NCBI GenBank assembly: GCA_013816855.1
Contig: JACDDT010000012.1
Location: 1 to 48,102, forward strand
Source of the DNA: Gemmatimonadaceae bacterium
GTDB lineage: Bacteria; Gemmatimonadota; Gemmatimonadetes; Gemmatimonadales; Gemmatimonadaceae
Reading direction: 5' to 3'
DNA: 48,102 nucleotides
Shown here: piece after piece, positions 42,354-43,290 of the stretch
Position numbering within the stretch: position 1 is the stretch's first letter
Layout: every line of letters begins with the position of its first letter
The notes under the pieces: model-generated
What the model was told of the DNA's origin: nothing
The model's database searches: none
The model's input: only the letters and a program-made list of their open reading frames with translations
Program-made: the position numbers and the translations under genes

Positions 42354-42843
42354 AGCCTTCGTTTTGGGACTATCGGTGCTCGCGGGGTCCGCATGCGAGC
42401 GCGGAGATAAGGCCGAGGTCGCGCGGGTCGATTCAGTGAAGAACGATTCGGTTTTCGCCGCGCTTCAGAAACGTGGCGAGATGACTATGGGTGTCGATCA
42501 ATACACATCGATGCACAGGTTCGAGCCTCTTCCTGACGGGGGACTGATCGTGCTGCAGCGGGATTCCGCAGACAGCGCGGGAGAAGCGACCATCCGAGCG
42601 CACGTGAGAGTCATCGCGACCGCGTTTGCCGCGGGAGATTTCACTTCGCCGGAGTTCGTGCACGCGACAGACACGGTGCCGGGAACCGCTGTGATGTCGC
42701 GGCTCAAGGGGGAGATCACCTACGCCGCGTCTGATCTCCCGCGGGGCGGCGAGGTGCGGATCACGACGAAGAACGCCGCGGGGGTGAAGGCGATTCACGA
42801 TTTTCTGGCGTTCCAGAGGATGGACCACCACGCGGGGATGTAG
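42337..42843 (+). CDS. Lipoprotein of unknown function
   Basis: A 168-residue lipoprotein: GTG 42337, signal peptide, lipobox GSAC (Cys20). The mature part begins with charged residues and continues with a beta-rich domain (LPDGGLIVLQRDSADSAGEA, then ISTFVRVIATAFAAGDFTSP-like strands), ending with QRMDHHAGM, a His/Met-rich tail of the sort that can bind copper or other metals. That is a weak hint only. It closes the phosphatase operon. Confidence 0.75.
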   Translation: MIQTAKAFVLGLSVLAGSACERGDKAEVARVDSVKNDSVFAALQKRGEMTMGVDQYTSMHRFEPLPDGGLIVLQRDSADSAGEATIRAHVRVIATAFAAGDFTSPEFVHATDTVPGTAVMSRLKGEITYAASDLPRGGEVRITTKNAAGVKAIHDFLAFQRMDHHAGM

Positions 42844-42863
42844 TTAATAGCTCCGCTAAACAA

Positions 42864-42898
42864 AAACGGGACCGCGCCTTTCGGCGACGATCCCGTTT
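42864..42898. terminator. Bidirectional hairpin terminator
   Basis: AAACGGGA at the left pairs with TCCCGTTT at the right, with an inner GCC/GGC stem and a TTTC loop. On the minus strand, the stem is followed by TTTTTG, a good terminator for the tRNA to the right. On the plus strand it follows the lipoprotein stop by 20 bases but has only TTT after it, so termination there is weaker. Confidence 0.75.
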
Positions 42899-43006
42899 GC
42901 AACTGCCTGCGTATTTAAAACATATTGGTACACAGGCGGGTGAACAAGCGCCCGGATGCCTTCGGAAGCTCTTTCGGTCTGAATTTTGGAATTGAGAACA
43001 CGCCCT

Positions 43007-43090
43007 TGCTCGAACCGGGATTCGAACCCGGACGCCCTTTCGAGCGACTGCTCCGCAGGCAGCTGCGTCTACCATTTTCGCCATTCGAGC
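43007..43090 (-). tRNA. Class II tRNA with leucine-type body and anticodon GCG (arginine codon CGC)
   Basis: An 84-nt class II tRNA with a complete cloverleaf: acceptor GCTCGAA/TTCGAGC, discriminator A, D arm GCG-AAAATGGTAGA-CGC, anticodon stem GCTGC/GCAGT, a five-pair variable arm with GAAA loop (CGCTC GAAA GGGCG), and T arm CCGGG-TTCGAAT-CCCGG. The D loop TGGTAGA, A73 and the long variable arm are those of tRNA-Leu. The anticodon loop, however, is CTGCGGA, giving GCG, which reads the arginine codon CGC; the ordinary leucine form would be CTGAGGA (GAG), one base away. CCA is not encoded. The shape is intact, so the amino-acid identity is uncertain between an unusual tRNA and a single-base error. 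Confidence 0.85.
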
Positions 43091-43096
43091 AGGACC

Positions 43097-43114
43097 CTAG
43101 ACGCGAGCGCCTAG
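43097..43114. other. 18-bp imperfect palindrome beside the tRNA
   Basis: CTAGACGCGAGCGCCTAG is a near-perfect inverted repeat six bases upstream of the tRNA 5' end (on the minus strand). It may be part of the tRNA promoter or leader, or chance. Confidence 0.3.
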
Positions 43115-43290
43115 AGTGACACGGATGCTGCGACACCCGTGCTGCGAGCCGAACCAAAGCTGGATCCCTTAGGTGGCGTTCCACGCATCAAAATCGCTCT
43201 CGTCGGGCGTTTCTTTTGCTAACTTAAGAAGGGCAGCCGCACGAGAATTGTTTTGCCCAGAGACTGGCGGATTTTTCCCGGAGATTTGAG

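Follow-up and report, generated by a model that had tools for sequence, protein, structure and literature searches.

The window examined here is a 48,102-nucleotide (nt) stretch of DNA from a Gemmatimonadaceae bacterium, contig C83 of genome G000 (assembly of 2.47 Mb, 170 contigs, 95% complete). At 43007-43090 on its reverse strand lies a transfer RNA (tRNA) with a class II leucine body, A73, and the anticodon GCG (43054-43056), proposed here to be a mis-decoding effector. The tRNA is real. ARAGORN calls it at 43006-43091(-), one base longer at each end than the Rfam match, and the Rfam tRNA model scores 55 bits at 43007-43090(-) against a gathering score of 29. The acceptor stem has seven of seven pairs, A73 is present, and CCA is unencoded. 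The D arm is of the leucine type (GGTAGACGC), the anticodon loop is CTGCGGA, and the variable arm is CGCTC-GAAA-GGGCG.

With the anticodon loop masked, the nearest of the 36 distinct tRNAs of the same genome is Leu-UAA, followed by Leu-CAG and Leu-UAG; the best non-leucine match is Arg-CCG. The ARAGORN call, the Rfam match, and this nearest relative confirm the initial annotation, which had described a leucine body with an arginine anticodon. The same annotation had offered a one-base change of tRNA-Leu(GAG) as an origin, a view that is disfavoured because the nearest body is Leu-UAA and the arms vary between copies of the element. A genome-wide check for Arg-ACG and another Leu-GAG had also been proposed. 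The genome has 37 Rfam tRNA matches, including Arg-ACG and the leucine tRNAs UAA, UAG, CAA, and CAG. Leu-GAG is not among the 37, an absence that a gap in the 95% complete assembly may explain.

The tRNA is flanked by further elements on the same strand. Downstream, a -35-like hexamer, TTGTTC (42942-42947), and a -10-like hexamer, TATGTT (42919-42924), are separated by a spacer of 17. Seven nt after the -10-like hexamer begins an antisense to the anticodon arm (42899-42911), the presumed 5' end of a small RNA. It is complementary to the end of the D arm through the anticodon (43054-43066) over 13 base pairs (bp) that include one G-U, with 9 nt exact. A terminator-like hairpin of 12 bp followed by T's (42864-42898) is equalled by 1 of 60 shuffles. 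The predicted antisense RNA, a proposed antidote of about 50 nt, would span 42861-42911. Upstream of the tRNA, leader hairpin 1 (43119-43142, 10 bp) has in its loop region a CGCA complementary to the anticodon loop and is a candidate cis lock. Leader hairpin 2 (43094-43117) abuts the 5' end of the tRNA. A T-box riboswitch was considered and rejected, as the T-box covariance model has no match at E up to 5 in 42840-43230.

The element belongs to a family. The first blastn matches included three class II tRNAs, one from each of three other genera, that ARAGORN classed by other anticodons (GCG, GCG, and GGC). Exact patterns joining a leucine D arm to a non-leucine anticodon brought the count to 27 loci in 22 Gemmatimonadota genomes, a lower bound. 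With the main pattern, 16 of 179 family genomes yielded 20 matches, compared with one match for the reversed control pattern, and a copy in G023 was recovered with a GCG pattern without the T arm. Outside the family, copies occur in four genomes (G242, G328, G068, and G072), among the 18 of 395 phylum genomes that match. A GAC copy lies in G263 (L318) and a GGC copy in G424 (L319). The assignment to the phylum is based on L306 (Gemmatimonas sp.) and other Gemmatimonadota contigs, which carry tRNAs identical to module copies. One pattern for serine-bodied equivalents matched none of the 179 family genomes. ARAGORN names such genes Arg, His, Ala, Gly, or Val tRNAs from the anticodon, and they are readily overlooked.

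Twenty-five of the loci were tabulated, with L117 and L319 left out. A73 and seven acceptor pairs are present in 23 of these 25, and the leucine features as a set (class II arm, A73, leucine D arm, and 7-bp acceptor) in the window copy and 23 of the 25. A leucine anticodon (NAG or YAA) is replaced by GCG in the window copy and by GCG, GTG, CGC, GGC, GCC, or GAC in the relatives. Compared with the window-genome tRNAs with the loop masked, 22 of the 25 bodies are nearest to a leucine tRNA. The exceptions are the G011 copy, nearest to Arg-CCG by a hair, and two broken copies of G052, nearest to Met and Trp. Over its first 27 nt, the G411 copy is identical to the window-genome Leu-UAA, and the G055 copy matches Leu-CAA over the same length, which suggests repeated origin or exchange.

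The usual layout places an antisense to the module's own anticodon arm 42-95 nt downstream of the tRNA, on the same strand, between a sigma-70-like promoter and a terminator-like hairpin. For the permutation test, G328 (a near copy of G242) and L117 (a near copy of G011) were dropped, and L319 was found afterwards, leaving 24 modules. An exact antisense of at least 9 nt lies at +30 to +130 in 18 of the 24, a count reached by 0 of 20,000 permutations of the arms. Non-cognate pairs of arm and antisense reach 9 nt in 3.4%. In the controls, neither the upstream region nor the sense direction gave 9 nt or more in any of the 24 modules. The same holds downstream of 32 ordinary tRNAs of the window genome, where the maximum is 7. 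Across these modules, the antisense covaries with the differing anticodon arms, as the comparison of their sequences has shown.

Exact antisense lengths reach 15 nt in G055, G036, and G282a, 16 nt in G052a, G052b, and G325, and 17 nt in G328. Two copies were examined or found after the rule had been set: the GAC copy L318 has an 11-nt antisense that begins 5 nt past a -10-like hexamer, and the GGC copy L319, with a different D loop, has one of 15 nt. The antisense begins 4-8 nt after a hexamer pair of the TT/TANNNT type in 16 of 25 modules. In 21 of 25 modules, no more than 2 of 60 shuffles give a hairpin as good as the terminator-like one, the exceptions being G029, G263a, G263b, and G412. 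In G282b, the terminator-like match sits farther downstream, and G052c has such a hairpin though it is without an antisense. The initial annotation had also raised sequencing error, which finds no support, as copies in other assemblies vary in their arms, have six anticodons between them, and mostly come with a matching antisense of their own.

The leader shows a second correspondence. All 15 GCG and GTG modules have a hairpin 29-48 nt 5' of the tRNA, and its loop contains CGC in 12 of 12 GCG copies and CAC in 3 of 3 GTG copies (the loop of G029 was placed by hand). The stem pairs of this hairpin change on both sides between modules, with a few mismatches, and in many modules another hairpin lies directly against the tRNA. 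Among leaders without the first hairpin, complementarity to the D arm is found over 10 nt in G325 and G052a (0 of 200 shuffles each), 8 nt in G328 (2 of 200), and 7 nt in G263c and G242 (13 and 14 of 200); the remaining such leaders give no signal. The leader hairpin of L117 (upstream of 1484) has 13 nt complementary to the anticodon arm, more than its 11-nt downstream antisense. Farther upstream, a GRTRACG-like motif, at -97 to -116 in most modules concerned, matches 7-8 of 8 letters in 13 of 25 modules compared with 13% of shuffles. It is possibly a special promoter or regulator site; the window copy matches only 5 of 8 letters. From the window alone, it had been argued that a tRNA of this kind has to be either inactive, charged in a special way, or under regulation. 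The logic was right, and the downstream antisense elements and matching leader hairpin suggest regulation.

At its present site, the module does not look like a long-standing gene, judging from related genomes. blastn found no close copy of the tRNA in 18 other genomes of the genus. No tRNA stands beside the HPPD gene at 15 loci from 14 congeners, some of them cut by contig ends. A comparison of the same locus in relatives, proposed earlier, returned no counterpart at the site, and two of the 18 congeners (G011 and G014) carry a different GCG module elsewhere. In congener L062, the end of the upstream-gene homologue lies 231 bases from HPPD compared with 451 in the window. This excess of ~220 bases falls somewhat short of the 282 bases that the window has between the outer ends of terminator and leader hairpin.

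Surroundings differ between modules. The neighbours recorded at nine of the 27 loci (ten flanking open reading frames) are differing ordinary genes, one without a family, and no aminoacyl-tRNA synthetase is among them. G055 and G023, which are congeneric species, each have a module next to GMP synthase, tail to tail with it and oriented alike in the two; both arm and antisense have changed. G052 holds one intact copy with a 16-nt antisense, one damaged in its 5' half with a 16-nt antisense, and one with a broken acceptor and no antisense.

The best reading, and on balance a probable one, is a two-RNA module in which a mistranslating, leucine-bodied tRNA would be silenced in cis and in trans by RNA, forming a toxin-antitoxin or addiction module. 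The first RNA would be the tRNA, reading another amino acid's common codon, here arginine CGC. Leucyl-tRNA synthetase in many bacteria reads the tRNA body and A73 and ignores the anticodon, so leucylation would be expected. The expressed and leucylated tRNA would insert leucine at CGC and would be harmful. In six open reading frames of the window, CGC makes up 108 of 230 arginine codons, CAC 53 of 84 histidine codons, GGC 117 of 250 glycine codons, and GTC 85 of 245 valine codons; for alanine, GCG and GCC make up 157 and 73 of 292. The module anticodons read frequent codons, which fits a harmful choice.

The second RNA would be a short, separately promoted antisense RNA. Its 5' end would form a duplex that spans the anticodon and disrupts the stem, and in one subgroup it may pair with the variable arm too. 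Such pairing would block decoding or mark the tRNA for decay. The leader hairpin would offer the cognate codon and mask the anticodon loop in the precursor, acting as a second lock in cis. Small antisense RNAs are usually short-lived whereas tRNAs are stable, so a cell that lost the locus or ceased to express it would be left with unrestrained tRNA. The result would be an all-RNA toxin-antitoxin or addiction module, possibly directed against phages, that is built on mistranslation. Sporadic occurrence, differing neighbours, and broken copies fit an addiction module. There is about an even chance that this is a new toxin-antitoxin type, with a codon-rewriting tRNA as toxin, an anticodon-arm antisense as antitoxin, and a codon-displaying leader hairpin as second lock, serving addiction or abortive phage defence and repeatedly re-armed with different anticodons.

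Several findings weigh against this two-RNA module. The promoter rule fails in 9 of 25 modules, seven lying outside the 4-8 nt distance and two having no hexamer pair. Six of 24 modules fall below 9 nt of antisense: three GTG copies, G029, G256, and the broken copy G052c. The anticodon-arm matches of the GTG copies and G029 are 5-8 nt long. In these copies, the downstream RNA is also similar to the variable-arm complement, a match that beats all 40 shuffles in L261 and L268 and fails to do so in L298 and L306. In G256 (GCC), the tRNA is intact and the antisense imperfect (8 of 9 pairs by eye). No intact tRNA appears plainly without any antisense, though the match is weak in G256 and some GTG copies. 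The window antisense scores -28.5 with its own tRNA compared with -23.1 with Pro-CGG, a modest margin. A cruder ranking by whole-region duplex energy is uninformative, with the cognate tRNA on top in only 9 of 24. In the leaders, the search used did not find hairpin 1 in CGC, GGC, GCC, or GAC copies, and several modules, GTG copies among them, have a second TCGCA outside the hairpin. The genomes with a module are mostly or all metagenome assemblies. With the module as blastn query, the matches were to a single plasmid record and to one phage, represented by two records; each alignment lay in the tRNA half and covered ~22% of the query. Regulated, useful mistranslation also fits and is the main rival.

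Under that rival, the tRNA would help the cell under stress by diversifying its proteins, and the antisense RNA would be an off-switch instead of the antidote of a selfish module. The same anatomy would be expected, and the GRTRACG-like motif could be a special promoter. In Streptomyces and Kitasatospora, tRNA-ProX joins a proline body to Ala, Asn, or Thr anticodons; according to the available part of the report, it mistranslates, is toxic in Escherichia coli, and confers antibiotic tolerance there (PMC10365949). Such adaptive mistranslation is nonetheless unlikely here, since sporadic occurrence (16 of 179 family genomes by the main pattern), varied anticodons and sites, and the broken G052 copies point to elements that are gained and lost rather than to a conserved stress response.

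Less likely still is a pure regulator, in which a tRNA-like RNA outside translation and an antisense RNA control each other or another target. The strong RNA-RNA complementarity would suit such a pair, but it would need neither a canonical cloverleaf (A73 and seven acceptor pairs in 23 of 25) nor anticodons for frequent codons. Decaying tRNA duplicates or a Leu(GAG) sequencing error, with inverted matches arising by chance, would agree with the missing Leu-GAG and the two broken G052 copies and are very improbable given 0 of 20,000 permutations, copies in 22 genomes, intact structure in 23 of 25, and a nearest body of Leu-UAA.

Beyond the phylum, one pattern scan of 84,980 species genomes gave 70 stretches. 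Gemmatimonads account for 18, of which 13 have an exact antisense of at least 9 nt. Among the other 52, one has an antisense (L295, 9 nt), which is partly palindromic and whose duplex score is below the maximum of the shuffles. Within the limits of that pattern, the two-RNA module is seen in Gemmatimonadota only. A looser pattern on viral contigs gave at least 120 stretches, with 80 loci (81 matches) listed. Among these listed matches, the longest downstream antisense is 9 nt, found once; visual inspection suggests that many of the matches are phage tRNAs, chance similarities, or genes of the Leu(UAA) type with an interruption after U34. A phage origin was considered and rejected on the short viral antisense among the listed matches and the partial blastn coverage.

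The module can be compared with several known systems. RNA-RNA (type VIII) toxin-antitoxin systems have an RNA toxin neutralised by an antisense RNA; measured by that definition, the complementarity of the module is seen in its sequence, and toxicity and rescue are putative. Type I systems of the hok/Sok kind have a leader locked in cis, to which the leader hairpin of the module is likened. As the available part of a source on type I systems describes them, they also have an antisense RNA antidote with a small separate promoter, and differ in having a peptide toxin with the antisense acting on its mRNA (PMC8309996). The module, by its sequence, has a neighbouring antisense RNA gene with its own putative promoter; the targeted RNA is a tRNA, with the anticodon arm as the target. 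CreTA, in the part of its report available, likewise has an RNA toxin that acts on decoding through a tRNA, but CreT acts by sequestering a rare tRNA, its transcription is repressed by CreA together with a CRISPR effector, and there is no antisense to a tRNA (PMC8501985).

Two systems share the mismatch of body and anticodon. Like the module, tRNA-ProX is a bacterial tRNA with one amino acid's body and the anticodons of others; it differs in its proline body, its frequent place beside a ProRSx gene, and the lack of any mention of an antisense RNA in the part of the report available (PMC10365949). The nearest own tRNAs of the window copy are leucine tRNAs, and no synthetase occurs in the ten flanking frames at nine of 27 loci, a comparison limited by the ProRSx link being described there as 'often' present and not always (PMC10365949). 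The tRNA-Ser(CAG) of Candida is a natural mismatch permitted by a synthetase that ignores the anticodon, but it represents a yeast code change, and an antisense partner goes unmentioned in the available part of the review, whose main text lacks the words 'antisense', 'toxin', and 'antitoxin' (PMC11415595). Among the open-access literature matches listed, none describes a mis-decoding tRNA whose anticodon arm is the target of an antisense RNA, and tRNA-ProX comes nearest. If the two-RNA module is as proposed, bacteria would use the genetic code as a weapon, a stable protein-corrupting tRNA being restrained by a small antisense RNA. It would constitute a new toxin-antitoxin principle and a natural antisense RNA directed at a tRNA anticodon arm, provide a testable rationale for joining a body-read leucine tRNA to common codons, and offer a ready tool for switchable mistranslation.

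Other unusual tRNAs were observed. About 2.5 kb from one module, at L288:1212-1301(-), is a tRNA whose anticodon has four bases (cgcg) according to ARAGORN, and a transfer-messenger RNA lies at 3-358. In metagenome-assembled genomes of alpha- and gammaproteobacteria, some of which have several such genes, leucine-like tRNAs combine a very long variable arm with an anticodon for Gly or Ala (GCC, CGC, or GGC); an antisense partner was not found for these. They occur at L297:300-900, where the copies are in tandem with encoded CCA, and at L245, L254, L255, L257, L262, L264, L266, L269, L270, L273, L277, L286, L293, L296, L301, and L303. Single leucine-bodied tRNAs with non-leucine anticodons and no clear antisense occur in other phyla (L247, L263, L267, L274, L279, L280, L281, L285, L302, L305, and L312), in hosts that include Chitinophagaceae, Lysobacter, Flavobacterium, and Butyribacter. 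On viral contigs, leucine-like class II bodies with the asparagine anticodon GTT recur (L131, L138, L157, L159, L165, and L186).
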